NCBI RefSeq assembly: GCF_900536025.1 | Contig: NZ_UNOZ01000019.1 | Span: 62,001-126,000 of the forward strand | Origin: Pseudomonas reidholzensis | Lineage (GTDB): Bacteria > Pseudomonadota > Gammaproteobacteria > Pseudomonadales > Pseudomonadaceae | Direction: 5' to 3' | DNA length: 64,000 nucleotides | Shown: positions 6,026-21,849 of the stretch, in pieces | How positions within the stretch are numbered: the stretch's first letter is position 1 | Layout of the letters: each line of letters opens with the position of its first letter | Position numbers and translations under genes: made by a program | The notes under the pieces: model-generated | Told to the model about the DNA's origin: nothing | Database searches by the model: none | Seen by the model: the letters and a program-made list of their open reading frames with translations, nothing else

Positions 6026-7204
6026 TTAAAGCCGTTCGATCACCATGGCGATGCCCTGACCACCGCCGATGCACAGGGTCACCAGGCCGTAGCGCCCACC
6101 CGTGCGGCGCAGCTCATGGATCGCCTTGATGGTGATGATCGCCCCTGTGGCACCCACCGGGTGGCCCAGCGAGATGCCAGAGCCGTTCGGGTTGACCTTG
6201 AGCGGGTCGAGCTCGAGTTGCTGGATCACCGCGCAGGCCTGGGCGGCAAACGCTTCGTTGGACTCGATGACGTCGATGTCGGCGATGGCCAGGCCCGCGT
6301 GCTTGAGGGCAAGCCGCGTTGCCGGTACCGGCCCCATGCCCATGTAGGCGGGGTCAACCCCTGCATGGCCGTAGGCGACCAAGCGTGCCAGCGGCTGCAA
6401 GCCATGCTGGCGCACCGCATCAGCGCCCGCAATGACCACGGCAGCGGCGCCATCGTTGAGGCTCGAGGCATTGCCAGCGGTAACCGAACCGCCGTCCTGA
6501 AACACCGCAGGCATGCTGGCCAGACGTTGCCGGTCGACCTGAGCACGAACATTTTCGTCAGTGTCAAACACGCTAGGGCCTTTGCGTGAGCGCAGCTCAA
6601 TCGGGACGATCTGCTCACGAAAACGCCCTTCGGCGATCGCCAGCGCGGCCCGCTGCTGACTCAGCGCTGCCAGTTCATCCTGCATCTCACGCGAGATATT
6701 GAAGCGCGCGGCCACGTTCTCGGCGGTCACGCCCATGTGAAACTGCTGCCACGGGTCGAGCAGGATCCCGTTCATGTAGTCGATGACCTGGGCGTCGCCC
6801 AACCGCGCGCCCCAGCGCATCGCTGGCAGCAGGTACGGACCGCGACTCATCGACTCGGCGCCGCCGGCAACGGCCAGCGTATAGTCACCGAGCTGGATGC
6901 CCTGGGCCGCCGAGACAATCGCCTGCAGGCCGGAACCACACAGGCGGTTCACGTTGAACGCCGGTACTGCCTGGGGGAGGCCGGCATTGATGGCGGCAAC
7001 GCGGGAGAGGTAGGCATCGCGTGGCTCCGTCGGTACCACGTTGCCCATCACCACATGGCCAATGGCGTCGGGCGCGACACCGGCGTGCGCCACCGCGCCG
7101 CGCATGACAGTGGTGGCAAGGTCGACCAAGGGGATGTCCTTCAGCGAACCGCCAAAACTGCCGATGGCGGTCCTCGCCGTGCCTACGAAAAACACGTCGT
7201 TCAT
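6026..7204 (-). CDS. Acetyl-CoA acetyltransferase (thiolase)
   Basis: Cytosolic thiolase of 392 residues that cleaves or condenses 3-ketoacyl-CoA. Active-site residues are C89 (VNRLCGSGLQA), the histidine of GISLGHPVGATGA and C378 (TLCIGGGQG); NEAFA is also present. The ATG at 7204 has AAGGAC upstream; the TTG six bases earlier is not needed. It lies 50 bp after the acyl-CoA dehydrogenase in the same operon. Valine breakdown does not need a thiolase, so it may serve isoleucine (2-methylacetoacetyl-CoA) or general short-chain thiolysis. Confidence 0.93.
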   Translation of the reverse strand: MNDVFFVGTARTAIGSFGGSLKDIPLVDLATTVMRGAVAHAGVAPDAIGHVVMGNVVPTEPRDAYLSRVAAINAGLPQAVPAFNVNRLCGSGLQAIVSAAQGIQLGDYTLAVAGGAESMSRGPYLLPAMRWGARLGDAQVIDYMNGILLDPWQQFHMGVTAENVAARFNISREMQDELAALSQQRAALAIAEGRFREQIVPIELRSRKGPSVFDTDENVRAQVDRQRLASMPAVFQDGGSVTAGNASSLNDGAAAVVIAGADAVRQHGLQPLARLVAYGHAGVDPAYMGMGPVPATRLALKHAGLAIADIDVIESNEAFAAQACAVIQQLELDPLKVNPNGSGISLGHPVGATGAIITIKAIHELRRTGGRYGLVTLCIGGGQGIAMVIERL

Positions 7205-7254
7205 GTGCAATTGTCCTTGTTGTCATGGGGCGCTGAATGGCCCGCAGCCGGGGG

Positions 7255-8406
7255 TTAGAAGGCGTAGTTGGCCAGTGCTCGGGCTATCACCAGGCGCTGG
7301 ATTTCGCTTGAGCCTTCGTAGATCTGGGTGATGCGCGCGTCGCGGTAAAAACGCTCGACCGGGTAGTCCTCCAGATAGCCGTAGCCTCCGTGGACCTGGA
7401 TGGCCTTGGAGCACACCCGCTCTGCCATTTCCGACGCAAACAGCTTGGCTTGGGACGCCTCGGACAGGCAGGGCAGGCCGGCGCTCTTCAGCCGCGCAGC
7501 GTGCAACACCAGCAGTCGGCTCGCGTTGATCTGGGTGTGCATGTCGGCCAGCATGTTGGCAATGCTTTGGTGCTCGGCGATCGGTTTGCCAAACTGGATA
7601 CGTTCACGGGCGTAGACCAGTGCCGCTTCAAAGGCCGCCCGGGCGATGCCCAGCGCCTGGGCCGCTATGCCAATGCGACCGCCTTCCAGGTTCGACAGGG
7701 CGATGGCCAGGCCTTTACCGCGCTCGCCTAGCAGGTTGCTTTCAGGGATTCGACAGTCACGCAGGGTCACCGCGCAGGTGTCGGACGCGCGTATGCCCAT
7801 CTTGTGTTCGCTACGATCTACCGCAAAGCCTGGGGTCTCGGTCGGCACCAGGAAGGCTGACAGGCCCTTCTTGCCAAGCGCTGGGTCGGTCACGGCGAAG
7901 ACGATCGCCAGCTTGGCCCGCTGGCCATTGCTGACGAACTGCTTCGCACCATTGAGTACCCATTCGCCGTTGTCGAGATGGGCCCGGGTCTTCAAGTTAT
8001 CGGCCTGAGAACCGGCCTGCGGCTCGGTCAGGCAGAAACAGCCGATGCTTTCGCCGCTGGCCAAGCTGCTCAGCCAGGTGTCCTTCTGGGCCTGGCTGCC
8101 GTAGTTCAGCACCGGGCCGCAGCCGACCGAGTTATGAATGCTCATCAAGGCGCCCACTGCGGCATCGCCCGCCGAAACCTCTTCGACCGCCAGTGCATAG
8201 GCGACATAGTCGATGTAGGTGCCGCCCCATTCCTCGGGGACGACCATGCCTAGCAGGCCCAACTGGCCCATCTGGGCGACCAGCGTGTCGTCGATCCAGC
8301 CGGCTTTTTCCATGGCTGCCGCGCGCGGGGCGATTTCGCCGCGGGCGAAGTCTCGCGCCATGTCACGGATCATCCGTTGTTCTTCGTTCAGTTCGAGGTC
8401 TTGCAT
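7255..8406 (-). CDS. Acyl-CoA dehydrogenase, probably isobutyryl-CoA/short branched-chain
   Basis: FAD-dependent dehydrogenase of 383 residues that introduces a double bond and passes electrons to ETF. Seen are the FAD/substrate block [15 protein letters not shown], the MGIRASDTC segment, and the C-terminal [16 protein letters not shown] containing the catalytic glutamate in the position used by short-chain members. Flanked by HIBYL-CoA hydrolase, mmsB and mmsA, the likely reaction is isobutyryl-CoA to methacrylyl-CoA; 2-methylbutyryl-CoA is also possible. The ATG at 8406 is preferred to a GTG nine bases earlier because AAGG is correctly spaced. Confidence 0.92.
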
Positions 8407-8423
8407 AGAGGTCACCTTTTTAC

Positions 8424-9509
8424 TCAGGCCGTACGCTGTTGGCTGACACCGTGCAGTGTTGCGTTGAACAGCGCCCGCACGTGTGCGGGTTCAAGCCCAG
8501 AAACGTGCGCAATGCGCCAGCGCGGCTGCTTGTCCTTGTCGATGATCAGGGCGCGGATGCCTTCAATCAGGTCGCCCTCGGCAAACCAGGCCGGGGCCAG
8601 CGCGAGCTCCTGCTGGAAACACGCGTGCAGCTCGAGCTGGCGACCTCTGCGCAACAGTTCGAGCGTGGTGGCCATGGCCAGCGGCGAACGGCTGTCGAGC
8701 AGCTCGGCGGTTTCCTCGGCCCAATCGGCATGCGCGGGGCCGGTTTCGCCGCGCAGCGAGCGGCAGATTGCGTGCAGTTCGCCCGCGGCAAAATGTCCAT
8801 CGATGGCGGCGCGCTGGGCTTTCAGTTCGGAGCCGGGCAGCTTGCGCACGCCGAGCGTGGCCAGCAGGGCCTGCAGCTCCTCGAGCGGACTGTCGCTCCA
8901 GCTCATGTTGTTCAGGCAGTGATCGAGCTCGGCGACCTGCGAACTGCCGATGCACCAGTCCGCCAGGCCGGCATACAGCGCATCCGCGGCTCGCACCTGG
9001 ATCCCGCTGAGGCCAAGGTAGGTGCCCAGCTCGCCGGGTAGTCGGGACAGGAAGTAGCTGCCGCCGACGTCCGGGAAGAAGCCGATCGCCACTTCCGGCA
9101 TGCCCATGCGCGTGCGTTCGGTGATCACCCGCAGGGCAGCCCCTTGGACCAGGCCCATGCCACCGCCAAGGACCAGGCCGTCGACCAGGGCGAGGATGGG
9201 TTTGCTGTAGGTATGGATGTGCTCGTCGAGCGCATACTCTTCTTCCAGGAACAGCAGGTGCTGGTCGCTGCCCGAGGTATGACTGTCGTAGAGCATGCGA
9301 ATGTCGCCCCCGGCGCAGAAGGCTTTTTCGCCTTCGGCGCGCAGCACTACAGCGACCACCTCGGCGTCTGCTTCCCAGGCGCGCAGTTGCTGCTGAAGCA
9401 GACGCACCATCTGCAGGTTGAGCGCGTTCAGGCCTTCGGGGCGGTTCAGGGTGAGGTGGCCGATGCGGTTGCGCACGTTGGCCAGCACCAGCGCTGGGCG
9501 GCTGCTCAT
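8424..9509 (-). CDS. 3-hydroxyisobutyryl-CoA hydrolase (crotonase superfamily)
   Basis: Hydrolyses 3-hydroxyisobutyryl-CoA to free 3-hydroxyisobutyrate in valine catabolism. At 361 residues it is longer than a hydratase and matches the HIBCH class: [26 protein letters not shown], then [23 protein letters not shown], where the E and D of the hydrolase active site lie. The C-terminal half has the HIBCH extension with [20 protein letters not shown] and [23 protein letters not shown]. It overlaps mmsB by four bases (ATGA), and lies 17 bases before the dehydrogenase, so it is within the operon. Confidence 0.92.
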
Positions 9510-10402
9510 AGGCTGGCCTTGCGGCGATACGTGTTGATGATCGCGGAGAAGTCCATGGCGCCGTTACCCTGGGTGCTGAAGCTCTGGTAGAGCTGCTGCG
9601 CCAGGCCGCCGAGCAGCACCGGCTGACCGATCTGCCGGGCCGCTTCAGTGGCCAGGCCCAGGTCCTTGAGCATCAGGTCGCTGCCGAACCCGCCGCTGTA
9701 GCCGCGCGCGGCGGGCGCCGTGGCGACTACGCCAGGGAACGGGTTGTAGACCTCCGAGCTCCAGCAGCGGCCACTGGAGGTGTTGATCACGCCGGCCAGC
9801 ACGCTGGCATCCATGCCCAAGGCAACGCCCAAGGCCATGGCCTCCGAGACGCCGGCCATGGAAATCCCCAGCAGCATGTTGTTGGCGATCTTGGCCACCT
9901 GGCCGTTGCCGACAGCGCCGCAGTGGACGATGTTCTTGCCCATGGCTTCGAGCACCGGGCGGGCGTGCTCGAAGTCGCTCGGCGTGCCGCCCACCATGAA
10001 CGTCAAGGTGCCGGCAGTGGCGCCACCGGTGCCGCCGGATACCGGTGCATCGAGCATCGGGTTGCCGTGGCTGGCGGCGGCTTTTGCCACTTCGCGGGCG
10101 GTCAGCGGGTCGATGGTCGAGCAGTCAAGCAGTACTACGCCGGGGCGCACATGGTTCAGCAGGCCTTCACTTGCCAGGTACACCGACTTCACGTGGGCGG
10201 CCGCCGGCAGCATCGTCACGATCATGTCCGGGTTGCCTTTGGCGATGGCCGCGGGGGAGGCGGCTGGCGTGGCGCCGGCGTCAACCAGCGTCGCCAGGGC
10301 AGCGGCCGAGAGGTCGAACACAGTCAATTGATGGCCGGCGTTGAGCAGGTTCAACGCCATTGGCGCACCCATGTTGCCCAGCCCGATAAATCCGATATTC
10401 AT
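9506..10402 (-). CDS. mmsB: 3-hydroxyisobutyrate dehydrogenase
   Basis: Oxidises 3-hydroxyisobutyrate to methylmalonate semialdehyde with NAD+. The 298-residue protein starts with the nucleotide-binding GFIGLGNMGAPMALNL (GLGNMG at 7-12), carries the substrate motif DAPVSGGTGGATAGTL (119-132) and the catalytic lysine K171 in GNGQVAKIANN. It lies between a crotonase and the HIBYL-CoA hydrolase, giving consecutive steps of valine degradation, and couples to the hydrolase by a four-base overlap. Confidence 0.95.
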   Translation of the reverse strand: MNIGFIGLGNMGAPMALNLLNAGHQLTVFDLSAAALATLVDAGATPAASPAAIAKGNPDMIVTMLPAAAHVKSVYLASEGLLNHVRPGVVLLDCSTIDPLTAREVAKAAASHGNPMLDAPVSGGTGGATAGTLTFMVGGTPSDFEHARPVLEAMGKNIVHCGAVGNGQVAKIANNMLLGISMAGVSEAMALGVALGMDASVLAGVINTSSGRCWSSEVYNPFPGVVATAPAARGYSGGFGSDLMLKDLGLATEAARQIGQPVLLGGLAQQLYQSFSTQGNGAMDFSAIINTYRRKASL

Positions 10403-10427
10403 GGTCTGTCCTTTTGTTCAGAGGGCG

Positions 10428-11201
10428 TTACTGGTGGGTGAACTGCGCAGCGCGCTTTTCCACGAATGCGGCCATGCCTTCTTTCTGGTCGGCCGTGGCA
10501 AACAGCGAATGGAACACCCGGCGCTCGAAGCGCACCCCTTCACTGAGGCTCGATTCGAATGCGCGGTTGACGCTTTCCTTGAGCAGCATGGTGGCCGGCA
10601 GGGAGCGCTCGGCGATGGCATTGGCGACTTTCAAGGTTTCTTCGAGCAGCGTCTCCAGCGGCAGCACGCGCGCCACCACGCCGGCCCGTTCCGCCTCGTG
10701 GGCGTCCATCTGGCGGCCACTGAGGCACATTTCCATGGCCTTGGCCTTGCCCACCGCCCGCGCCAGGCGTTGGGTGCCGCCAATGCCGGGTATCACCCCG
10801 AGGGAGATCTCCGGCAGGCCGAAGCGGGCGTTGTCGGCGGCATAGATGAAGTCGCACATCAGGGCGACCTCACAACCACCACCCAGTGCATAGCCGGCGA
10901 CGGCGGCAACAAGCGGTTTGCGTCGATTGGCGATGCGGTCGGCGGCAGAGAAGAAATCATCGAGGAACACCTGCGGATAGGTGAACTCGGCCATTTCCTT
11001 GATATCGGCACCGGCGGCGAACGCCTTGTTCGAGCCCGTGATGACCATGCAGCCGATCTGGGGATCGCTTTCCAGGCGATCCAGCGCCAGGTTCACTTCA
11101 TCGATCACTTGGCTGTTGATGGCATTCAGCGCCTTGGGCCGGTTGAGTGTGATCAGTCCGACGCGCTCATGGATTTCCAGCAGGATGGTTTCAAATTGCA
11201 T
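10428..11201 (-). CDS. Enoyl-CoA hydratase
   Basis: A 257-residue crotonase that adds water to 2-enoyl-CoA; here probably methacrylyl-CoA to 3-hydroxyisobutyryl-CoA. The oxyanion-hole segments are [11 protein letters not shown] and [15 protein letters not shown], and both catalytic glutamates of true hydratases are present (GGGCE and [18 protein letters not shown]). It sits between mmsA and mmsB with short gaps, so it belongs to the valine operon. Broader activity on other short enoyl-CoAs is likely. Confidence 0.94.
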
Positions 11202-11256
11202 GACAACGGCTCCGAGTCAGGCGCTTACCCCGTGGTGAGCGCCTGCGCTGTTCAGG

Positions 11257-12765
11257 TCACTTCAGGGTGATCGTGGTGTTGACGCTGCCAACCACTTCGT
11301 CTTCGTCGAACCAGCGCTCGGTGACGGTCTTGGTCTGGGTATAGAACTGCACCACCTGCTTGCCGTAAGGCCCCAGGTCGCCGAGTTTTGAAGCGCGTGA
11401 GCCGCTGAAGGAGAACAGTGGCACCGGCACCGGAATCGGTACGTTGATGCCGACCTGACCGATGTCGATTTCTTCCTGGAAGTGCCGTGCGGCGGCGCCT
11501 GAGCGGGTGAACAACGCGGTGCCGTTGCCGTTCGGGTTGGCGTTGATCAGCGCGATGGCTTCGGCAAACGTGTCCGCGGTGATCACGCACAGGACCGGGC
11601 CGAAGATCTCTTCGCGGTAGATGCTCATGTCGGTGGTCACGCCGGAGAAGATAGTCGGGCCGATGAAGTTGCCTTGCGGGTACCCAGGCACCTCGGGGTT
11701 GCGGCCGTCGAGCTCCAGTGTCGCGCCCTGCTCGATGCCGCTGGCGATATAGCCACTGATGCGGTCCAGCGCTGCGCGGGATACCACGGGGCCGACGTCG
11801 GTGCCGGCTTCAACGCCGGCGTTGATACTCAGGCTTCGGGATTTTTCGATCAGCTCAGGTACCCAGCTTTGCGCCTCACCGACCAGGACCACTACCGGCA
11901 GCGCCATGCAACGTTGGCCAGCGGCACCGAAGGCGGCGCCGAGCAGGCTGTTGATAGTCTGTTGCTTGTTGGCGTCGGGCAGCACGATGGCGTGGTTCTT
12001 GGCGCCCATCATGCATTGCGCGCGCTTGCCGTTCTGGGTGGCACGGTTGTACACGTGGGTGCCGACCGCGGTGGAGCCGACGAATGAAACAGCCTTGATA
12101 TCTGGGTGATCACAGATCAGGTTGACTGCCTCCACACCACCATGAATCACGTTCAGCACGCCGGCTGGCACCCCGGCCTGCAGCGCCAGCTCGGCCAGGC
12201 GCATGGTGACCATCGGATCCTGCTCGGAAGGTTTGAGGACAAACGTGTTGCCGGTGGCGATCGCCATCGGGAACATCCACAGCGGGATCATTGCCGGGAA
12301 GTTGAATGGGGTGATGCCCGCGCACACGCCAAGTGGTTGCAGCAGGGTAAAGGTGTCGACGCCGCCTGCTACGTTGTTGGCCAACTCGCCCAGTTGCAGG
12401 TTGCCGATGCTCGCGGCGTGTTCGACCACTTCGAGCCCGCGGAACACATCGCCCTCTGCATCAGGCAGGGTCTTGCCCTGTTCGGCGGTGAGGATGGCGG
12501 CCAGATCCTTGATGTTCTCGCGGATCAGCTGCTGGTACTTGAGGAAGATGCGTGCGCGGGCACCGATTGGCGTTTTACGCCAGGTCTTGAACGCCTGCTT
12601 GGCACTGGCCACGGCCGCGTTCATTTCTTCGGCGGTGGCGAACGGAACCCGCGCGAGCACTTCCTGAGTCGCTGGGTTGACCACATCACGCCATTGAGTC
12701 GTGCGTGACTCCACCAGTTTGCCGTCGATCAGCAGCTTGATGTTCGGAACGGAGCTAACGGTCAT
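11257..12765 (-). CDS. mmsA: Methylmalonate-semialdehyde dehydrogenase (CoA-acylating)
   Basis: Converts methylmalonate semialdehyde, CoA and NAD+ to propionyl-CoA, CO2 and NADH, the end of valine catabolism. The 502-residue ALDH has the catalytic cysteine C286 in [12 protein letters not shown] and the NAD-binding [28 protein letters not shown] has N where ordinary ALDHs carry the general-base glutamate, which is diagnostic of MMSDH. It is the first gene of a minus-strand operon and faces an AraC regulator across a 298-bp gap. A leader motif AACAAAAACAA 31 bases before the start suggests Crc/Hfq control. Confidence 0.96.
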
Positions 12766-13035: not shown

Positions 13036-13063
13036 TCAAGATAGATGCGAGGGGGTATTGCCA

Positions 13064-14089
13064 GTGGATCACTCAGTGGACAACACCTTGCCGATGACCT
13101 TTGTCCAGGGGTTGTTGCAAGGGGCGCAGAACATCTGCAGCGCGGCCGATATTCATCGGTTCGTCAGCGCGGCGGGTATTGCCGAGCACTTGCTCGATGC
13201 CCCTGGCGCGCGGGTGACGTACGACCAGTTCGTGCGCCTGTACCAGGAGGTTGCGCTGGGCAGCGACGACGAGATGATGGGCCAGTGCTCGCGGCGGATC
13301 CGCAGCGGTACGCTCAAGTACCTGTGCGCCAGCCTGCTCGACGCCAAGTCGCTGACCATCGCGATGTACCGCTTCACGCGCTTCTGGAACCTGTTGCTCG
13401 ACGACTATCGGTTCGACTGCGCCGAACAGTCGGGGCTGGTGGTGATCGCTTTGATACCCCGCGACGGCAGCGCCGACATGCAGCGCTTTGGCCATGAGCT
13501 GATGATGAAACTGGCCCATGGCATTGCGTCGTGGTTGATTGGCCAGGAGATCCCTCTGCACGCGGTGACGTTCTCCTTTGCTCGCCCGCAGTACGCTTCG
13601 GAGTACATGCACATGTTTCCGGCACCGGTGAGCTTCGAGCAGCCGCATACCGCGTTGAGCTTCGACGCGCACTGGGGGGCGATGAAGTTCAGTCGGAGCA
13701 AGGCCGAGTTGTTGCCGTTTCTCCAGGCGGCGCCGCGTTATTGGCTGTTTACCACCCTCAAGGAGCGCCTGGTGGCGCAACAGGTCCGTCAGCACGTGCT
13801 GCTCAACCCCAAGCAGGACTGCTGTATTCAGGATGCCGCCAATGCCTTGTTGCTCTCGACCCGAACGCTCACCCGCCGGCTCAAGGAGGAGGGCACCAGT
13901 TACCAGTTGGTCAAGGATGCCCTGCGCCGCGACATCGCTGTCCAGCAACTGATCCACACCGACCTGTCGATTGCGCACATTGCCCAGGGGTTGGGTTTTG
14001 ATTCGACGGCGGTGTTCCATCGGGCCTTTCGTGGCTGGACCGGCAGTACCCCGGGCGCCTATCGCCGGCGAGAGATCAATGGCTGCTGA
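13064..14089 (+). CDS. AraC family regulator with N-terminal arabinose-binding-type domain; probable regulator of the mms operon
   Basis: A 341-residue regulator of the branch with a roughly 220-residue N-terminal ligand domain (YDQFVRLYQEVALGSDDEMMG, SLTIAMYRFTRFWNLLL) and a C-terminal AraC DNA-binding domain (DAANALLLSTRTLTRRLKEEGTSYQ, IAHIAQGLGFDSTAVFHRAFRGWTGSTPGAYRR). The GTG at 13064 has GAGGGGG eight bases upstream; the TTG at 13058 is too close to it. Its position opposite mmsA is that of MmsR-type activators, though this subfamily is different in length from classical MmsR. Ligand unknown. Confidence 0.9.
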   Translation: MDHSVDNTLPMTFVQGLLQGAQNICSAADIHRFVSAAGIAEHLLDAPGARVTYDQFVRLYQEVALGSDDEMMGQCSRRIRSGTLKYLCASLLDAKSLTIAMYRFTRFWNLLLDDYRFDCAEQSGLVVIALIPRDGSADMQRFGHELMMKLAHGIASWLIGQEIPLHAVTFSFARPQYASEYMHMFPAPVSFEQPHTALSFDAHWGAMKFSRSKAELLPFLQAAPRYWLFTTLKERLVAQQVRQHVLLNPKQDCCIQDAANALLLSTRTLTRRLKEEGTSYQLVKDALRRDIAVQQLIHTDLSIAHIAQGLGFDSTAVFHRAFRGWTGSTPGAYRRREINGC

Positions 14090-14197
14090 GGCGCCTGCGC
14101 GACGCCAATCGGTTTTACCTACAAACGTACAAGCCGAGTGACACGGGTGACACGTAGAGTCGTTGTATTGCCCGTATTCGTTAATAAGGAAACCGAC

Positions 14198-14392
14198 GTG
14201 TTTGAATTCGTCAGCAACTTCATTCGGCCAGACTATGAAAAGAGTGATCGCTGTTTTCTAGTGCTGGCACTTATCGTCGGTTGCGGCTTCGGCACTGTAC
14301 TCGGCCACAAGATCTCCCTGAGTGTCGGGTTGCCCTTCAGCGTCGTTGCCTCGTTGGCGCTGTACTACCTCTGGCGCCGTCCTGGACGGTGA
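14198..14392 (+). CDS. Small two-helix membrane protein, unknown function
   Basis: A 64-residue protein starting at GTG with AAGGAA six bases upstream. It has two hydrophobic stretches (CFLVLALIVGCGFGTVLGH and SVGLPFSVVASLALYYLW) and ends in RRPGR. It is not related in any obvious way to its neighbours. An in-frame ATG at 14138 lacks a ribosome site and would add a non-hydrophobic tail. I do not recognise it. Confidence 0.6.
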   Translation: MFEFVSNFIRPDYEKSDRCFLVLALIVGCGFGTVLGHKISLSVGLPFSVVASLALYYLWRRPGR

Positions 14393-14441
14393 GCTAGCTG
14401 TATTGCCGAACATGAAAATACTCGCCTCCATGAACTAGGAA

Positions 14442-14462
14442 GGGTCGAAGCGTGCTCGACCC
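14442..14462. terminator. GGGTCGA inverted repeat after the small membrane protein
   Basis: GGGTCGA and TCGACCC are separated by seven bases. There is no U-run, so termination is uncertain. The 241-bp gap to the amine oxidase must also hold its promoter, which I could not identify. Confidence 0.35.
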
Positions 14463-14633
14463 TGCGGCGTTAAAACAACAATAACGTGCTGTTTTTTGTA
14501 AGGGGTGCTTCCCCGTACAACGTCCTGCCACCTGTAACTCGACCGTTCCCTTGGTTACCCGAGCGGCTGCCTGCCGTCTCGAGAAAAGGTCACGGCCGAG
14601 ACCGTTGGATTCATCCTGAGAGGAACTCTACAC

Positions 14634-16235
14634 ATGCAAGCGCACGCAATGCCCCTTAGCCGTCGCCAGGTGCTGCACTGGATTGGCGCCACTGCCGGTG
14701 CGGCGGCGATGTATCAGGCCATGGGTGCCCTGGCCTTTGCCGGGGAGACCCAGCATGACCGAAATTTTGCCCTGAGCGGCGCCCCGAAGGGGGCACGTAT
14801 CCTGATCCTCGGCGCCGGCTTGGCCGGCATGACCGCCGCCTACGAACTGCGCAAGGCCGGGTACCAGGTCAAGCTGCTGGAATACAACGCCAAACCGGGT
14901 GGCCGCTGCTGGACCCTGCGCGGCGGTGACCGCTTTGTCGAACTGGGCGGGGCAACGCAGGACTGCAAGTTCGATCCGGGGCTGTACCTGAACCCGGGAC
15001 CCTGGCGGATTCCCTACCACCACCATGCGGTGCTCGATTATTGCCACCGCTTCGGGGTCGCTCTGGAGCCGTTCATTCAAGTCAACTACAACGCCATGGT
15101 TCACTCGACCCAGGCGTTCGGCGGCAAGCCTGTGCGCTATCGCGCGGTGCAGGCTGATTTCCAGGGGCATATCGCCGAGCTGCTGAGCAAAGCGATCAAC
15201 CAGAATGCGCTCGACCAGGCGCTCACCGCCGAAGACCGCCAGCGCCTGCTCGAGGCGATGCGCAGCTGGGGCGCGCTGGACGCCAGCGGGAGTTACAAAA
15301 AGTCACTGGAGACCAGCTTGCGCCGCGGCTTCGCGGTCGATGCCGGTGGCGGCCTGATGAGTCAGCCGGCGCCCTCTGACCTGCTCGACCGCAAGGCTTT
15401 GCTCGACTCCAACCTCTGGCAGAGCATTGCCGTTGGGCAGGACTACGAGTTCCAGACCAGCCTGTTCCAGCCGGTCGGCGGCATGGACAAGATTGCCCAG
15501 GCGTTCGAGCGGCAGGTGGGTGACCTGATCCAGTACAACGCCAAGGTCACCGCGATCGAACAGAGCGACAACGGCGTGACGGTCACCTACCAGTCCAGTA
15601 CTGGTGGGGCGTCGGCGCAAGAAACCGCGGACTGGTGTGTCTGCACACTGCCGTTGTCGATCCTCGGGCAGCTCCCGGTGCAGGTCAGTGCGCCAATGAT
15701 GAGCGCTATCCGTGCGGTGCCCTACGAAGCCGCGGTCAAGGTCGGCTTGCAATTCAAGCGGCGTTTCTGGGAGCAGGACGAGCGCATCTACGGTGGCATC
15801 AGCTACACCGACACGCCCATCGGCAAGATCAGCTACCCCAGCACCGACTACGGCAAGCCCGGTAAAGGGGTGTTGCTGGGTGGTTATCTGTTCGGCCCCA
15901 ACGCCTACGAATTCACCGCGATGGCGCCAGAGGCACGGGTGCGCAAGGCCGTCGAGTACGGCGCCCTGGTGCACCCGCAGTACCACGATGAGTTCGACAA
16001 CGGCATCGCCGTCGGCTGGCACCGTGTGCCATGGACCAACGGCTGCTACGGCCTGTGGACGGAAACCCTGCGTGAGCAGCACTACCAGACCCTGTGCCAG
16101 ATCGACGGACGCATCGTCCTGGCCGGCGAGCACGCTTCACGTATCCCCGCGTGGATGGAGGGGGCGATCCTGTCGTCGCTCGACGCCATCAAGCGGCTGC
16201 ACACCCATATCGTCGCCAGCCACCAGGCGGCCTGA
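14634..16235 (+). CDS. Tat-exported flavin monoamine/L-amino acid oxidase
   Basis: FAD enzyme of 533 residues that would oxidise a primary amine or amino acid to an imine in the periplasm. A twin-arginine signal (LSRRQVLHWIGATAGAAA, R10-R11) precedes the dinucleotide-binding motif GAGLAG at 60-65, E83 for the ribose and PGGRCWTLRGG. The C-terminus has the FAD-contact block GRIVLAGEHASRIPAWMEGAI typical of L-amino acid oxidases. GAGGAA precedes the ATG. The next genes encode a c-type cytochrome and an exported RidA. By analogy with NicA2/CycN of P. putida S16, electrons may go to the cytochrome instead of O2; this is inference. Substrate unknown, amino acids likely. Confidence 0.9.
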   Translation: MQAHAMPLSRRQVLHWIGATAGAAAMYQAMGALAFAGETQHDRNFALSGAPKGARILILGAGLAGMTAAYELRKAGYQVKLLEYNAKPGGRCWTLRGGDRFVELGGATQDCKFDPGLYLNPGPWRIPYHHHAVLDYCHRFGVALEPFIQVNYNAMVHSTQAFGGKPVRYRAVQADFQGHIAELLSKAINQNALDQALTAEDRQRLLEAMRSWGALDASGSYKKSLETSLRRGFAVDAGGGLMSQPAPSDLLDRKALLDSNLWQSIAVGQDYEFQTSLFQPVGGMDKIAQAFERQVGDLIQYNAKVTAIEQSDNGVTVTYQSSTGGASAQETADWCVCTLPLSILGQLPVQVSAPMMSAIRAVPYEAAVKVGLQFKRRFWEQDERIYGGISYTDTPIGKISYPSTDYGKPGKGVLLGGYLFGPNAYEFTAMAPEARVRKAVEYGALVHPQYHDEFDNGIAVGWHRVPWTNGCYGLWTETLREQHYQTLCQIDGRIVLAGEHASRIPAWMEGAILSSLDAIKRLHTHIVASHQAA

Positions 16236-16249
16236 ATCCGGAGCTCATC

Positions 16250-16642
16250 ATGCACAAGCACTCATGGCTGGCACTGCTCATCGGCGCTCTCGGCAATGCT
16301 GGCGCCTGGGCCGCCGATGGCGATCTGTCGACGTCCGGCAAATTCGATGAACGCACCGGCGAAGCCTTGTTTCACCAGGTCTGCCAAGGCTGCCACATGC
16401 CTCAGGCACAAGGCGCCAGCGGTGCCGGTGCGTATCCAGCGCTGGCCGCCAACGCAAAACTGGCCGCCAAGGTCTACCCGGTGTTCATGGTCAGCTCGGG
16501 GCAAGGCGGCATGCCTGGCTTCAAGGACTCGATGTCCGACCAGCAGATCGCCGATGTCGTGAACTACGTCAGGAGCCACTTTGGCAACGCCTTTGCTGAC
16601 AGCGTCACGCTCGAGGATGTTCGCTCGGTGACGCAGCGCTAG
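16250..16642 (+). CDS. Periplasmic class I c-type cytochrome
   Basis: A 130-residue protein with a Sec signal (MHKHSWLALLIGALGNAGAWA), one haem-binding CQGCH at 45-49 and a likely axial methionine M88 in GQGGMPGF. SDQQIADVVNYVRSHFGN is the usual C-terminal helix of small cytochromes c. It starts 14 bases after the flavin oxidase with GGAG upstream, so it is co-transcribed and is the natural candidate electron acceptor. It would then pass electrons to the respiratory chain. Confidence 0.94.
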   Translation: MHKHSWLALLIGALGNAGAWAADGDLSTSGKFDERTGEALFHQVCQGCHMPQAQGASGAGAYPALAANAKLAAKVYPVFMVSSGQGGMPGFKDSMSDQQIADVVNYVRSHFGNAFADSVTLEDVRSVTQR

Positions 16643-16681
16643 CGCCGTGGATTGGCCGCAAGGCCCTCATTGGAGAAAGGA

Positions 16682-17191
16682 ATGGTCATGCTGAAAAACA
16701 TCGTACGCCCGCTGATGCTCTCGTCCATGGCGCTGCTGGCAGTGCCCGCAGTGCAGGCGGCCGAAGTCATCCGCCACAAGATCCCCAACTCGGACTTTCC
16801 CATCTCGCTGGCGATTGAAATCCCCGCTGGCGCCACCCTGGTCAACCTCAGTGGCGCGGTGCCGCCGGCCATCGATGCCAAGGCCGATGCACGAAGCCTT
16901 GCCGCGTATGGCGATACCGAAACCCAGACGGTCAGTGTGCTGAAAAGCATACAGGGCACGCTCGAGCACCTGGGGTTGAGCCTGGCGGATGTGGTGAAGA
17001 TGCAGGTCTACCTGGTCGGCTCGGCTGAAGCGGGCGGCAAGATGGATTACGCCGGTTTCATGCGGGGCTACACGCAGTTCTTCGGCACCGCCCAGCAGCC
17101 CAACTTGCCGACCCGTTCGGTGTTCCAGGTCGCGGGCCTGGCCAACCCCGGTTACCGGGTCGAGATCGAAGTGTCTGCCGTTCGCCGCTGA
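16682..17191 (+). CDS. Exported RidA (YjgF/UK114) family imine deaminase
   Basis: RidA proteins hydrolyse reactive imine/enamine products of amino-acid enzymes to 2-oxo acids and ammonia. This 169-residue form carries an N-terminal signal peptide (LMLSSMALLAVPAVQA), unlike cytosolic RidA. The core shows NLSGAVPP, the substrate-binding arginine in LPTRSVFQVAGL and the glutamate of VEIEVSAVRR. Directly after a periplasmic amine oxidase and its cytochrome, it would release the imine product in the same compartment. ATGs at 16682 and 16688 both have usable ribosome sites. Confidence 0.9.
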   Translation: MVMLKNIVRPLMLSSMALLAVPAVQAAEVIRHKIPNSDFPISLAIEIPAGATLVNLSGAVPPAIDAKADARSLAAYGDTETQTVSVLKSIQGTLEHLGLSLADVVKMQVYLVGSAEAGGKMDYAGFMRGYTQFFGTAQQPNLPTRSVFQVAGLANPGYRVEIEVSAVRR

Positions 17192-17242
17192 CCGATGTGT
17201 CGCAGCCGGGGGCGACCCGGTTGCGCATCCGCCTACAAATAC

Positions 17243-17250
17243 AAGAATAA
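17243..17250 (+). promoter_or_regulatory. AAGAATAA (AAnAAnAA) leader motif
   Basis: Matches the Crc/Hfq motif 32 bases before the indolepyruvate oxidoreductase start. A small CCCCT/AGGGG hairpin (17255-17269) follows, abutting the GGAG ribosome site. Confidence 0.4.
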
Positions 17251-17281
17251 GTTTCCCCTTAGCCAGGGGCGGAGTTGAATC

Positions 17282-20200
17282 ATGACGCTGAAAAAAGTCC
17301 AGCTGGACGACAAGTACCTGCTCGACGAAGGACGCATTTTCATTACCGGGACGCAGGCGCTGGTACGCCTTTCGATGAGCCAGCATCTGCGCGATCAACA
17401 AGCGGGCCACAACACTGCGGGGTTCATTTCCGGCTATCGCGGTTCGCCGCTGGGCGGGTTGGATGATCAGCTCGGCAAGGCCAAGCAGTACCTGTCGGCA
17501 CACAATGTGTTGTTCCAGCCCGGCATCAATGAAGACCTCGCGGCGACCACCCTCTGGGGAGCGCAACAGGCCCACCTGAGCGGTGAAGGCAAGTTCGACG
17601 GGGTGTTCGGCATGTGGTACGGCAAAGGCCCGGGTGTTGACCGTACCGGCGATGCCTTCCGCCATGCCAACCTGGCGGGCACGGCCGCGCTGGGCGGGGT
17701 GCTGGTACTGATGGGCGATGACCACACCTGTGAATCGTCCAGTACCTGCCACCAGAGCGAGTTCGCCATGGTCGATGCGATGATCCCGGTGCTCAGCCCG
17801 GCGGGGGTCCAGGAGATCCTCGACTTCGGCCTGATCGGCTGGGGCCTGTCGCGTTACAGCGGCTGCTGGGTGGGCATCAAGTGCGTGAAGGACACTGTCG
17901 AAGCTACTGCCACCATCGACGTCGATATCAATCGCGTGCAGATCGTCCAGCCCGTCGACTTCGTCCTGCCCGCAGAGGGTCTTAATATCCGCCAGCCCGA
18001 TACGCCCCATGCGCAGGAAGCGCGCCTGCATCGGTTCAAACTCGGTGCCGCACGGGCGTTTGCTCGGGTCAATGGGCTGGACAAGTGTGTGGTCGATTCG
18101 CCTCAGGCCCGGCTGGGTGTGATGACCCACGGCAAGAGCTATCTGGATGTCCTGCAGGCCTTGCAAGACCTGCAGCTGAGCGAGGCCGACGCAGCCGCAC
18201 TGGGGCTGCGCCTGTACAAGGTCGGCATGGTCTGGCCGCTCGAACCGGCGGGTGCTGCGCAGTTCTGCGAGGGGCTCGACAAGGTGCTGGTGGTCGAGGA
18301 AAAACGCAGCCTGCTGGAACTGCAGCTCAAGGAGCAGTTGTATGGCCGGTCAAGTGCACCGGTCATCGTCGGCAAACTCGATGAGCACGCCCAGGTGTTG
18401 TTCCAATCGGAGATGGCGCTGGACTCCAACCAGGTGGCCATCGCGTTGGGCGAGCGCCTGCTCGAGCTCCAGGACAATGCGCCGCTGCGTGCGCGTGTCG
18501 AGCGCCTGCGAGCCTATCAGCCGAGCAAAGGCAATGCCGATCTGCTCTCGCGCAGCTATTACTTCTGCAGCGGCTGCCCGCACAGTTCATCCACCGTGGT
18601 GCCCGAGGGCAGCAAAGCGTATGCCGGCATTGGCTGCCATTGGATGTCGCAGTCGATGGACCGCTCGACCCAGGGTTATACCCACATGGGTGGCGAGGGG
18701 ATGGTCTGGGTCGGCGAGGCGCCTTTTTCCAAGCGCACGCACATGTTCCAGAACATCGGTGACGGCACCTATTTCCATTCAGGCTTTCTGGGTATCCGCG
18801 CGGCAGTTGCCGCGGGCACCAACATCACCTTCAAGATCCTCTTCAACGATGCCGTGGCCATGACCGGCGGGCAAAAACACGACGGTACCTTGAACGTGCC
18901 GGCGATTGCCCATCAAGTCCATGCCGAGGGGGTCAAGCGCATCGTCGTGGTCACCGACGAACCGCTCAAATACCCCAGTGATACACGTTGGCCCGAAGGT
19001 TTGACGATCCATCACCGCGATGTGCTGGACAAGGTCCAGCGTGAACTGCGCGAAGTCACTGGCACCTCGATCCTGATCTATGACCAGACCTGTGCAGCCG
19101 AAAAGCGCCGCCGCCGCAAGCGTGGGACCTTCCCAGACCCCGCCAAGCGGGTGGTCATCAATGACCTGGTCTGCGAGGGCTGTGGCGATTGTGGTGTGCA
19201 GTCCAACTGTGTCTCGGTACAACCGCTGGAAACCGAGTTCGGTCGCAAGCGGGCCATCGACCAGTCTTCTTGCAACAAGGACTTCTCGTGTGTCAAAGGC
19301 TTCTGCCCCAGCTTCGTCACGGTATTGGGCGGTACGCTCAGGAAGCCTGGCCAGGTTGTCCAGGAGCACGTGCCGCTGTTGCCAGAACCGACCCGACCCA
19401 GCATCGACACCCAGGTCTACAGCATCCTGGTGGCCGGCATGGGCGGCACGGGCGTGGTGACCATTGGCGCCATTCTGGGCATGGCCGCGCACTTGGAAGG
19501 CCGTGGTTGCGGTTTGCTCGACATGGCAGGGCTGGCGCAGAAGGGCGGTTCGGTGTGGAGCCACCTGCGCTTCGGGCCTGACCCGCAGTCGATCAAGACC
19601 ATCCGCATCGCTGCCGGTGGCGCCGACCTGGTGCTCGGTTGCGACCTGATCGTGGCGGGCAACGCGAAAACCCTCGCGGCCACGCGTCATGGCAATACCC
19701 ACGTGCTCGCCAACACCCAGGAGACCATGCCCGGGGCCTTTACCCGCAACGCCGACATGCAATACCCGACGCAAGGGCTGCGCAGCAACATCATCGAAGC
19801 GGTCGGTCAGGACCATGCCGAATTCGTCGACGCCGGGAGGATTGCCACGGCGCTGCTCGGCGACAGCATCGCCAGCAACATGTTCATGCTCGGCTTTGCC
19901 TATCAGCGCGGGCTGATCCCGTTGACGGCGGTGTCCATCGAAGCCGCCATCGAGCTCAACGGTACGGCCAGGAAAATGAACACCGATGCCTTCCGCTGGG
20001 GGCGCCAGGCGGCGCTCGATCCACAGGCGGTGGAGCAGCGTCTGGCGGCCAGGTCAAATGCGCAGCTGGCCGGGGTGTCGCCTGCACCGGTCATTACCCT
20101 CGATGAGCAGATCAGTACGCGTCAGGCCTACCTGTCGGCGTACCAGAACGACGCCTATGCACAGCGCTACGTCAGCCTGGTGCAACGGGTTCGAAACCTG

Positions 20201-20767
20201 GAGCAGTCGCTGTCGGGGCAGCACGATGACCTGACCCGCGCGGTGGCCAAGTACTACTTCAAGTTGCTGGCGATCAAGGATGAGTACGAAGTCGCTCGCC
20301 TGCACACCGAAAGTGGTTTCCTGCAGCGGATCTCCGAGCAGTTCGAAGGTGATTACAAGCTGGTCTTCAATCTTGCGCCGCCGATGCTCTCCAAGCGTGA
20401 CGGCGATACCGGCCTGGCGAAGAAGTCGGAGTTCGGCGCTTGGGTCCTTCCCGCCTTCCGGGTCTTGGCCAAGCTGCGCTTTCTGCGCGGCAGCCTGTTC
20501 GATCCGTTTGGCTACACCCATGAGCGGCGCCAGGAGCGTGCGCTGATCGAACGCTATGAAACGGTGGTCGAGGAAGTCCTTGGCACCCTGACCCAGCAGG
20601 GGGGGGATTCGCACCATCAAACGGCCGTGAAGCTCGCCTCGTTGCCCGAGCAGATTCGTGGCTATGGCCATGTCAAAGCGCGCGCGATGGAGGCCGCCTT
20701 CGCTCAGGAGGCGGTCTTGCTGGATATCTTGCGTGGGCGTGTGATTGCGCTGAAGAAGGTCGCCTGA
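17282..20767 (+). CDS. Indolepyruvate ferredoxin oxidoreductase family protein (fused IorA-IorB type)
   Basis: A 1161-residue 2-oxoacid:acceptor oxidoreductase that would decarboxylate aryl- or branched-chain 2-oxo acids to acyl-CoA, using TPP and Fe-S clusters. The N-terminal half has pyrimidine- and TPP-binding regions (GFISGYRGSPLGGLD near 45, GMWYGKGPGVDRTGDAFRHAN near 115, GIGCHWMSQSMD and NDAVAMTGGQKHDG). Near residues 630-641 is the cysteine cluster CEGCGDCGVQSNC, with SCNKDFSCVKGFCPSF after it. The gamma domain starts with VAGMGGTGVVTIGAIL near 718. It lies 90 bp after the exported RidA; the 2-oxo acid released there is a plausible substrate. Real substrate (phenylpyruvate, indolepyruvate, branched) is not determinable. 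Confidence 0.93.
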   Translation: MTLKKVQLDDKYLLDEGRIFITGTQALVRLSMSQHLRDQQAGHNTAGFISGYRGSPLGGLDDQLGKAKQYLSAHNVLFQPGINEDLAATTLWGAQQAHLSGEGKFDGVFGMWYGKGPGVDRTGDAFRHANLAGTAALGGVLVLMGDDHTCESSSTCHQSEFAMVDAMIPVLSPAGVQEILDFGLIGWGLSRYSGCWVGIKCVKDTVEATATIDVDINRVQIVQPVDFVLPAEGLNIRQPDTPHAQEARLHRFKLGAARAFARVNGLDKCVVDSPQARLGVMTHGKSYLDVLQALQDLQLSEADAAALGLRLYKVGMVWPLEPAGAAQFCEGLDKVLVVEEKRSLLELQLKEQLYGRSSAPVIVGKLDEHAQVLFQSEMALDSNQVAIALGERLLELQDNAPLRARVERLRAYQPSKGNADLLSRSYYFCSGCPHSSSTVVPEGSKAYAGIGCHWMSQSMDRSTQGYTHMGGEGMVWVGEAPFSKRTHMFQNIGDGTYFHSGFLGIRAAVAAGTNITFKILFNDAVAMTGGQKHDGTLNVPAIAHQVHAEGVKRIVVVTDEPLKYPSDTRWPEGLTIHHRDVLDKVQRELREVTGTSILIYDQTCAAEKRRRRKRGTFPDPAKRVVINDLVCEGCGDCGVQSNCVSVQPLETEFGRKRAIDQSSCNKDFSCVKGFCPSFVTVLGGTLRKPGQVVQEHVPLLPEPTRPSIDTQVYSILVAGMGGTGVVTIGAILGMAAHLEGRGCGLLDMAGLAQKGGSVWSHLRFGPDPQSIKTIRIAAGGADLVLGCDLIVAGNAKTLAATRHGNTHVLANTQETMPGAFTRNADMQYPTQGLRSNIIEAVGQDHAEFVDAGRIATALLGDSIASNMFMLGFAYQRGLIPLTAVSIEAAIELNGTARKMNTDAFRWGRQAALDPQAVEQRLAARSNAQLAGVSPAPVITLDEQISTRQAYLSAYQNDAYAQRYVSLVQRVRNLEQSLSGQHDDLTRAVAKYYFKLLAIKDEYEVARLHTESGFLQRISEQFEGDYKLVFNLAPPMLSKRDGDTGLAKKSEFGAWVLPAFRVLAKLRFLRGSLFDPFGYTHERRQERALIERYETVVEEVLGTLTQQGGDSHHQTAVKLASLPEQIRGYGHVKARAMEAAFAQEAVLLDILRGRVIALKKVA

Positions 20768-20832
20768 CGGCGGTGTGATCACCCAGGGGATCGGCTGTCA
20801 GCGGCCGGTCGCCCTGCGTGCACACAGTATCT

Positions 20833-21849
20833 CTAACCTCGCGGCATGCTCGCGAAGCGATTTCGATACGCCGCCGGTGTAGCCCCCACATGCTGGCGGA
20901 ACAGGCGTGTGAAGGAACTGGCGTTCTGGTAGCCGACCTGGTTGGCAATCTCCTCGATGCTCAGGTCACCGCTTTCGAGCAGCTTCATGGAAATTTCGAT
21001 GCGCAGGTTCTGCAGGTAGGCCAGCGGCGTCGTCCCCAGCACATCGTTGAAATGGCGAATCAGCGTGCGCACGCTGACCGACAGCGCGGCGGCCAGTTGC
21101 GGCATGCTGACGTCTTCAGCGAAGTGCTTGAGCAACCAGTGTTGCGCCTTGGCCACCATGGTATCGCTGTGCACCGACCCCATCTGCAACGGCAGGTAGG
21201 GCAACTGGGTGGTCTGGCTGGTGTCGATGAGCATGGTCTTGGCGGTCAGCGTGGCGGTGTTGGCCCCGCAGAAGTGCTCGACCATGCGCACCGCCTGGAG
21301 CAGGTAGGAGGCCGACGCGCCCGCGCACCAGAGCCGATCCTGCTCGGTCACCATCGAGCGCAATTGCAGGTCGACATTGGGGTTGCGCTCGCGGAACAGT
21401 TTTTCCAGCCACCAGGTGGTAGTGGCCTGGCGACCATCCAGCAAACGGGTTTCTGCCAGCAGGAAGGTGCCGGTGCAGTTGGCCGCCACTACCGCGCCCT
21501 TGCGCCACTGCGCCTCCAGCCATTCACGCTGAGGCCGTGCGTTGTCCAGGCTACGCAGAAACGCATCGTGCCCTGAGTAGTAAAGCCCCGGTATGAAGAT
21601 GATGTCGTACGGCTCGCTGGACAGTGCCACGGTGCTGTTCACCGTCAGCCCATTGCAGGCCGTGACGGGCTTGCCTTGATGGGAGACGAACTCCCAGCTG
21701 AACGGGCGCGACATGGCGCCACCGGTCTTGTGTTGCTGGCGGCTCAAGTGCGCATTGGTGACATGCAGGACATCGCCAAAGCCGGCCAGACTGGACGCGT
21801 AACAGCCGTCGATGGCGAGAATCGCGGCGCGAAGGGGCAGTGTTTTCAT
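20833..21849 (-). CDS. GlxA family transcriptional regulator (DJ-1/PfpI domain plus AraC HTH)
   Basis: A 338-residue regulator: residues 1 to about 190 form a DJ-1/PfpI-like domain (AAILAIDGCYASSLAGFGDVL, DIIFIPGLY, AVVAANCTGTFLLAETRLLDGR), and the end is an AraC double HTH (MPQLAAALSVSVRTLIRHFNDVLG, IEEIANQVGYQNASSFTRLFRQHVG). The ATG at 21849 is chosen as domain start; its ribosome site is weak. One half of the inverted element at 21851-21887 abuts the start codon, consistent with autoregulation. It is divergent from the quinone reductase operon, and the same element occurs before the ligase at 27302. Confidence 0.91.
   Translation of the reverse strand: MKTLPLRAAILAIDGCYASSLAGFGDVLHVTNAHLSRQQHKTGGAMSRPFSWEFVSHQGKPVTACNGLTVNSTVALSSEPYDIIFIPGLYYSGHDAFLRSLDNARPQREWLEAQWRKGAVVAANCTGTFLLAETRLLDGRQATTTWWLEKLFRERNPNVDLQLRSMVTEQDRLWCAGASASYLLQAVRMVEHFCGANTATLTAKTMLIDTSQTTQLPYLPLQMGSVHSDTMVAKAQHWLLKHFAEDVSMPQLAAALSVSVRTLIRHFNDVLGTTPLAYLQNLRIEISMKLLESGDLSIEEIANQVGYQNASSFTRLFRQHVGATPAAYRNRFASMPRG

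Follow-up and report, generated by a model that had tools for sequence, protein, structure and literature searches.

An Oxidase–Cytochrome c–RidA Gene Trio in Pseudomonas reidholzensis as a Probable Periplasmic L-Amino-Acid Dehydrogenase Module

Introduction

When a flavoenzyme with an export signal oxidizes an amino acid, where do its electrons go, and what becomes of the imine? The question is raised by a four-gene line of Pseudomonas reidholzensis, located in a 64,000-nucleotide stretch of contig NZ_UNOZ01000019.1 (positions 62,001 to 126,000 of the forward strand; hereafter the window, whose own numbering is used below). There, an amine oxidase with a twin-arginine translocation (Tat) motif is followed, 14 bases on, by a cytochrome c containing the motif CQGCH, then by a RidA-family protein with an N-terminal signal, and finally by a large 2-oxoacid oxidoreductase. 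An initial annotation of this DNA had listed these four frames, and all four are found where it placed them. We argue that the first three genes quite probably encode a periplasmic L-amino-acid dehydrogenase module, in which the neighbouring cytochrome c would accept the electrons of the flavoenzyme and the exported Rid protein would clear the imine. The same scheme, put forward in the initial annotation, is consistent with the anatomy of the locus, its conservation, a published orthologous cluster, and related enzyme pairs.

Sequence Features of the Trio

The oxidase gene (14634–16235, + strand) encodes 533 residues with a Pfam Amino_oxidase domain (4.5e-60), predicted to form a Tat-type flavin oxidase of the L-amino-acid-oxidase kind that probably works as a dehydrogenase. 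Its N-terminus, MQAHAMPLSRRQVLHW, presents the twin arginine in a Tat-like context, with SRRQV followed by a stretch free of D, E, K, and R (a rule-based call, not SignalP). The second gene (16250–16642, + strand, 130 residues) encodes a predicted Sec-exported, monohaem cytochrome c with a hydrophobic N-terminus, the presumed electron acceptor, which matches Pfam Cytochrome_CBB3 (1.2e-12, scored on the frame opening at 16244). The third (16682–17191, + strand, 169 residues counted from the ATG) matches Pfam Ribonuc_L-PSP (8.7e-15) and is predicted to be an exported Rid3-like imine deaminase; its reading frame opens at a TTG at 16652, with the ATG at 16682, and its N-terminus, MVMLKNIVRPLMLSSMALLAVPAVQAAE, is hydrophobic. 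The intergenic gaps measure 14 bases between oxidase and cytochrome, 39 between cytochrome and RidA, and 90 between RidA and the oxidoreductase, and all four genes lie on the same strand. No terminator-like site was found on the + strand between 15881 and 20767 (such sites being no commoner than in shuffled sequence, with 5 found versus 5.2 expected), and no promoter-like site in 14000–21000.

In a PDB search, the solved sequence closest to the oxidase is the L-amino acid oxidase 2jae (E 1e-88 over residues 48–527), which we take to be the Rhodococcus opacus protein known as an oxidase. Fourteen of the top 15 PDB rows carry the name of an L-amino acid oxidase, an L-glutamate oxidase, or a reconstructed ancestor of such enzymes; the other, 5ts5, is named just ‘Amine oxidase’. 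Among the best 60 of 88 rows, none is named a nicotine oxidoreductase, and 5ts5 and 8i6i are labelled ‘Amine oxidase’ only. Closest kinship to a NicA2-like amine dehydrogenase was set aside, as the solved neighbours are L-amino acid oxidases, with NicA2 itself left unplaced. The arginine of the GPWRIP motif aligns with that of RIP in 2jae and does not vary in either of two alignments (17/17 and 19/19 sequences); this arginine of GxxR(I/L)P is presumably the residue that binds the substrate carboxylate. The predicted oxidase structure (mean predicted local distance difference test score, pLDDT, 61.9) was too poor for a fold search.

For the window Rid protein, the only solved matches at E 1e-5 or better are PSPTO3006 and PFL1385 of the Rid family. 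In the Rid alignment, referred to E. coli RidA, the catalytic arginine is kept in 76/76 rows and the glutamate in 75/76, and the position of Tyr17 is occupied by isoleucine in 74/76. Niehaus 2015 (PMC4433059) characterizes Rid3 by retention of Arg and Glu with replacement of Tyr17 by Ile; at the level of these residues, the window RidA bears a Rid3-type signature.

Conservation and Phylogeny

A scan of named genomes returned at least 571 relatives of the oxidase, and the best 80 were fetched (the 80 named loci), together with 15 further loci, one per genome, whose oxidases are 52–63% identical (L073–L087). Stretches of ~9 kb on either side were taken as a rule, although some contigs end sooner. 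The closest named relative among the matches listed is a Pseudomonas fragi oxidase (81% identical, locus L147). A cytochrome c gene stands directly behind the oxidase in 79/80 named loci and in all 15 additional ones, with order and strand kept, and the slot behind it holds a RidA gene in 44/80 and 9/15, respectively. The gene order that the initial annotation had suggested searching for is thus conserved in genomes. The exception among the named loci, in Bradyrhizobium tropiciagri, shows broken frames at the place of the cytochrome. Many of the 80 loci are close kin (several each from Xanthomonas, Bradyrhizobium, Dyella, and Paraburkholderia) and therefore do not represent 80 independent events. 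With 11 RidA-family genes in the 6.16 Mb genome, a same-strand RidA would be expected by chance in the 1.7-kb slot behind a gene only ~0.0015 times per locus; the trio is far beyond chance.

Within the genus, 51 of 199 sampled genomes contain an oxidase match, and the trio-type enzyme is confined to the window genome and one other (G151), the remaining matches reaching at most 39% identity over long stretches and 42% in one fragment. A sample of the phylum gave matches in 27 of 398 genomes; in 16 of these, the window genome included, identity is 52% or more.

A quick tree of the oxidase, built with the signal region excluded from 84 of the 124 available rows (41 of the 80 named loci; L102 omitted), sorts the enzymes by cytochrome. 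The cytochrome state requires three changes, compared with ~20 in shuffles (L098 being scored as monohaem in this count). One large monohaem clade includes the window and the Gluconacetobacter diazotrophicus-type row L236; a small group has dihaem c4-type cytochromes; and 18 rows have no cytochrome nearby. The cytochrome of L098 is in fact dihaem (dihaem profile, 307 versus 23 bits), and the c4 group therefore holds three rows. L101, also devoid of a cytochrome, stands apart on a long branch; the long-branch joins in this tree (L101, L096, L040, L098) are unsure.

Export Signals

The twin-arginine (RR) motif was recognized by rule in 119/123 oxidase loci and by eye in three more (L097, L101, L190), while the oxidase of L187 lacks an intact N-terminus in frame. 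The cytochrome signal rule was passed by 95/100 sequences, failing in L080, L098, L157, L172, and L188. For Rid proteins, we used a home-made rule rather than SignalP: a start codon, a hydrophobic 11-mer with a mean of at least 1.5, and no acidic residue up to that 11-mer. By this rule, 72/78 Rid neighbours of oxidases have a signal, as do 58/59 within oxidase–cytochrome–Rid sets (the 59 include dihaem L098). The Rid of the second oxidase pair of the window genome also passes, versus 0/7 of its other RidA-family genes used as controls (two more were not read). A loose lipobox pattern flags 14 Rid neighbours as possible lipoproteins. A cytosolic window RidA is thus unsupported, since it passes the rule as nearly all RidAs of trios do, and, as far as sequence allows, nothing contradicts its placement outside the cytosol.

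The six Rid proteins without a signal come from L224, a metagenome bin in which Rid was matched in two pieces, and from five loci of the genus of the window (L031, L032, L034, L037, L102). In these five, the oxidase keeps RR, but the stretch behind it contains two or three charges, some of them from acidic residues; the L102 oxidase is split over two frames. Two or more charges after RR occur in 5/6 oxidases beside a Rid without signal and in 6/70 beside a Rid with one (two more had no countable motif; Fisher p 1.4e-4). Four of the five genus loci are in the tree and form one clade; the five probably reflect one evolutionary event, and the six charged oxidases beside a Rid with a signal make the charge count a weak mark. 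In one Pseudomonas clade, then, the Tat signal of the oxidase and the signal of RidA appear to have been lost together, a candidate for a joint return to the cytosol.

The Orthologous lao-cccA-ridA Cluster

Rodrigues 2016 (PMC5053998) described the lao-cccA-ridA cluster of G. diazotrophicus PAL5. Two independent lao insertions abolish auxin formation from tryptophan, leaving much tryptophan unused and a low, persistent level of indole-3-pyruvate, and cytochrome c maturation mutants, cited there, make 5% of the auxin. The authors proposed Tat export of a probably periplasmic oxidase, cytochrome c as its redox partner, and imine hydrolysis by RidA. To connect this cluster with the window, the published lao primer was searched for in the family to which Belnapia (L219) belongs; of 397 genomes, 16 match within two mismatches, two of these exactly. 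All six published primers match L236 with 0 mismatches, and five match L235 exactly, the sixth with a single mismatch; the naming of L236 as G. diazotrophicus rests on these primer matches. In both loci, oxidase, cytochrome, and Rid occur in the order of the window (57, 54, and 52% identical, respectively), and the Rid carries an N-terminal signal.

A Periplasmic Dehydrogenase Module

The proposed reaction can be rationalized into successive steps. Once exported by Tat, the flavoenzyme would abstract a hydride from an L-amino acid at its alpha-carbon. The reduced flavin would then give up its two electrons, one at a time, to the monohaem cytochrome c encoded by the next gene, and this cytochrome would feed the respiratory chain. 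In the same compartment, the exported Rid3-type protein would hydrolyse the released 2-imino acid to 2-oxo acid and ammonia. In the window strain and a single relative, this 2-oxo acid may then be taken up and turned into acyl-CoA by the cytosolic oxidoreductase. This scheme is built on gene order, export signals called by rule, protein families, conservation, and orthology to lao-cccA-ridA, all of which the sequence supplies directly.

Biochemical precedent comes from Akram 2025 (PMC12224317), in which the Tat-oxidases that are paired with a cytochrome in clades 2 and 3 are dehydrogenases and react with their cytochromes at 10^4–10^6 per M per s. Several observations weigh against the scheme. 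In the same study, reaction with the cytochrome was no more than modest for the pairs of clade 1, whose cytochromes are of the dihaem c4 kind. The closest solved relative of the window enzyme carries the name oxidase, and the flavin-proximal lysine is kept (K364, invariant in the alignment), although this lysine does not discriminate between oxidases and dehydrogenases. As for the third gene, no RidA stands behind the oxidase in 36/80 named relatives (two of the 36 contigs end within 1.5 kb), and the RidA state needs ~16 changes on the oxidase tree; RidA is thus not indispensable and, as it occurs in all three groups of the tree, not tied to one electron acceptor. Finally, transcripts of lao, cccA, and ridA were all lower in one lao insertion mutant (PMC5053998), so that, in the data reported there, the roles of the three genes are not separated.

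The electrons might instead go to O2, the enzyme being a periplasmic oxidase whose cytochrome serves as a peroxide scavenger or minor acceptor. Relatives without a cytochrome gene do form a separate tree group of 18 rows, and PMC12224317 reports that most tested Tat-oxidases lacking a nearby cytochrome are fast with O2, and that one tested pair (B. anthina, by table values) uses O2 and cytochrome at comparable rates. The window enzyme, however, belongs with the close relatives that almost invariably have a cytochrome gene behind them; a nearby cytochrome was the stronger predictor of dehydrogenase function in that study, and the 5% of auxin made by the G. diazotrophicus maturation mutants also speaks against this reading. 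We consider an O2-using enzyme improbable here and retain the dehydrogenase module as the preferred reading.

The Fourth Gene and the Substrate

The gene at 17282–20767 (+ strand) encodes a 2-oxoacid:acceptor oxidoreductase of 1161 residues from the fused indolepyruvate ferredoxin oxidoreductase family (NCBIfam PRK13029/PRK13030; 1657/1618 bits, cut-offs 952/816), presumed to catalyze the cytosolic next step. Upstream of the oxidase, 13058–14089 (+ strand) encodes an AraC-type regulator with an arabinose-binding-like N domain (Pfam PF12625, PF12833), a candidate regulator of the cassette, divergent from a block of valine-type acyl-CoA genes at 6029–12765 (− strand). The block, assigned by NCBIfam, comprises a BktB-type thiolase, an acyl-CoA dehydrogenase, a 3-hydroxyisobutyryl-CoA hydrolase, a 3-hydroxyisobutyrate dehydrogenase, an enoyl-CoA hydratase, and a methylmalonate-semialdehyde dehydrogenase; its membership in the system is unproven. 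All of these pass curated cut-offs except the acyl-CoA dehydrogenase, which reaches no listed cut-off. A 64-codon frame with a GTG start and, by eye, hydrophobic stretches (14198–14392) separates the AraC gene from the oxidase.

How far does the line extend as a unit? Neighbours were matched at E 1e-15 and >35% identity. Among 110 other loci (not all trio-type), the oxidoreductase stands beside the oxidase in one, L030 of the same genus, and it is linked to the oxidase in 0/80 named loci. An AraC counterpart (81%) occupies the same place in L030 and none was found in the other 109; the valine set likewise appears in L030 only, apart from a single hydrolase-like match in L224. L030 shares the whole arrangement of the window, from the valine genes and AraC to the trio and oxidoreductase, at ~72–88% identity, whereas the P. 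fragi locus has the trio and neither oxidoreductase, AraC, nor valine genes were found there. A conserved four-part operon is accordingly rejected; the four-part extension exists, but within the loci searched it is limited to a single small lineage. Nor is the AraC protein a common Pseudomonas regulator, its other listed matches in 149 genus genomes being at most 37% identical (G151 excluded).

Of 149 genus genomes, 47 encode a relative of the oxidoreductase (the window's own included). Around 26 oxidoreductase relatives, a hand-chosen set (L241–L266), we found 4-hydroxyphenylpyruvate dioxygenase in three loci (one ~6 kb off, one with maleylacetoacetate isomerase) and an aromatic transaminase in one. 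A Leu/Trp-dehydrogenase-like gene is present in two: L251 (scoring 370 bits against the model for Trp dehydrogenase, whose cut-off is 600) and L253 (by resemblance). Terpene-type genes lie in three, namely L254 (NCBIfam), L252, and L255 (resemblance). Leucine genes had been considered for these last three, but the L254 gene is a gamma-carboxygeranoyl-CoA hydratase by NCBIfam, and the calls in L252 and L255 are by resemblance only. The stretch of 18/26 loci also contains an Lrp-type regulator, versus the AraC type in the window. The oxidoreductase is present in 12/18 genomes that have an oxidase–cytochrome pair (unlinked in 11/12), compared with 63/249 phylum genomes; as the two sets differ in taxonomy and genome size, no inference about a general partner encoded elsewhere is drawn.

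Which amino acid, then, would feed this line? As with the activities of the window proteins, we infer the substrate, the oxo-acid uptake, and the role of the fourth gene. The initial annotation saw a fit with a branched-chain amino acid. In a valine route of this kind, the oxidoreductase would supply isobutyryl-CoA to the divergent valine genes, with AraC controlling both sides. The synteny in L030 fits this route, as do the 3-hydroxyisobutyrate, 3-hydroxyisobutyryl-CoA, and methylmalonate-semialdehyde enzymes that clear their cut-offs and the sub-threshold L251 gene with its counterpart in L253. Yet the adjacency on which it relies is found in two genomes only, the set is missing from 109/110 loci, including the 81%-identical P. 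fragi locus, and a BkdA1-type gene is present in each of the two genomes that carry the four-part line; given this near-confinement and the BkdA1-type gene, ‘valine’ is unproven. The published phenotype of the orthologue is with tryptophan (PMC5053998), and aromatic-acid genes lie near oxidoreductase relatives in 4/26 loci. We regard a valine route as rather unlikely.

The tryptophan phenotype and these aromatic neighbours, together with the family name of the oxidoreductase and the cut-off it passes, point instead to a route in which Trp, Phe, or Tyr is converted to an arylpyruvate in the periplasm and then to arylacetyl-CoA by the oxidoreductase, the valine genes being mere neighbours. We give this a chance only a little short of even, as the indolepyruvate name is an annotation, no aromatic neighbour was found in 22/26 loci (and a dioxygenase in one of the remaining four is nearly 6 kb away), and the valine synteny of L030 is left unexplained. 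On balance, we lean towards aromatic or broad L-amino acids over valine alone as the substrate. If the dehydrogenase module and its extension work as proposed, a single amino acid would be an electron source for respiration on the outside and, presumably, for a low-potential carrier on the inside. The oxidoreductase gene behind the trio gives a way to approach the question of the substrate in the window strain.

Other Neighbours of the Oxidase

The window genome has a second oxidase, 35% identical (L029; C44:182500–184573), with an exported RidA and a gene resembling a TonB-dependent receptor downstream and no cytochrome match behind it. Receptor-like genes of this kind, recognized by eye, are present in the stretches of 12/80 named loci, 4/15 of L073–L087, 8/14 of L088–L101, and 11/12 genus loci (examples: L161–L190; L079–L095; genus loci L029–L039, L102). 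Genes for M20-type hydrolases also lie near the oxidase (L149:7644–8990, L074, L097, L100, L182, L185, L186, L191, L193, L195, L200), with a count by profile of 7/80 among the named loci. By NCBIfam, the L149 hydrolase is an amidohydrolase and that of L097 is of M20 type, and some M20-type genes have signal-like N-termini. Such neighbours would fit a cleavage of peptides or N-acyl amino acids ahead of the oxidation step.

Comparison with Known Systems

No paper describing the four-part line was found in the open-access library searched, which is no proof of there being none; the view of the initial annotation that the arrangement is undescribed holds at most for this line. The trio itself, however, was in print in 2016 as lao-cccA-ridA (PMC5053998). 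The three genes, their order, and their strand are those of the window, lao is reported with a Tat signal, and the two oxidases fall in one supported clade. The differences are that oxidoreductase and AraC, both present in the window, gave no match in the 13-kb stretch of L236 (valine genes were not sought there), and that lao-cccA-ridA was studied for auxin formation. In sum, the trio is not new and its mechanism is well supported yet already proposed in print; mainly the attached oxidoreductase is unusual here.

The FAO-CytC dehydrogenases (PMC12224317) can be likened to the window pair by two signposts, a Tat signal and an adjacent monohaem cytochrome c, with substrates mostly unknown and Rid not considered. 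NicA2/Pnao-CycN of Pseudomonas putida S16 likewise couples a Tat flavoenzyme to a Sec cytochrome c in one operon, but acts on amines (nicotine), not amino acids, and no Rid figures in the consulted part of the account in PMC12224317. Conversely, Chlamydomonas reinhardtii has LAO1 with LAO2/RIDA (PMC10805672), in which a periplasmic L-amino acid oxidase converts Trp to indole-3-pyruvate and RIDA is drawn in the periplasm; this is a eukaryotic, peroxide-forming system whose cluster is described with oxidase and RidA genes only.

On the Rid side, the nearest solved proteins are PSPTO_3006 and PFL_1385 of the Rid3 group, whose residues the window protein has; in a 2017 study (PMC5619798), both reduce imine trapping when the oxidase is given Leu, Gln, Phe, Met, or His. 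By eye and not by computation, the 144-residue chain of solved PSPTO3006 resembles the signal-less Rid of the L034 group. A broader, tentative idea, to which we give somewhat less than an even chance, goes further: Rid3 may be a dedicated imine-clearing partner of L-amino-acid oxidoreductases that follows them into any compartment while the electron acceptor is exchanged (monohaem, dihaem c4-type, or none nearby), the window version being further wired to a 2-oxoacid oxidoreductase.

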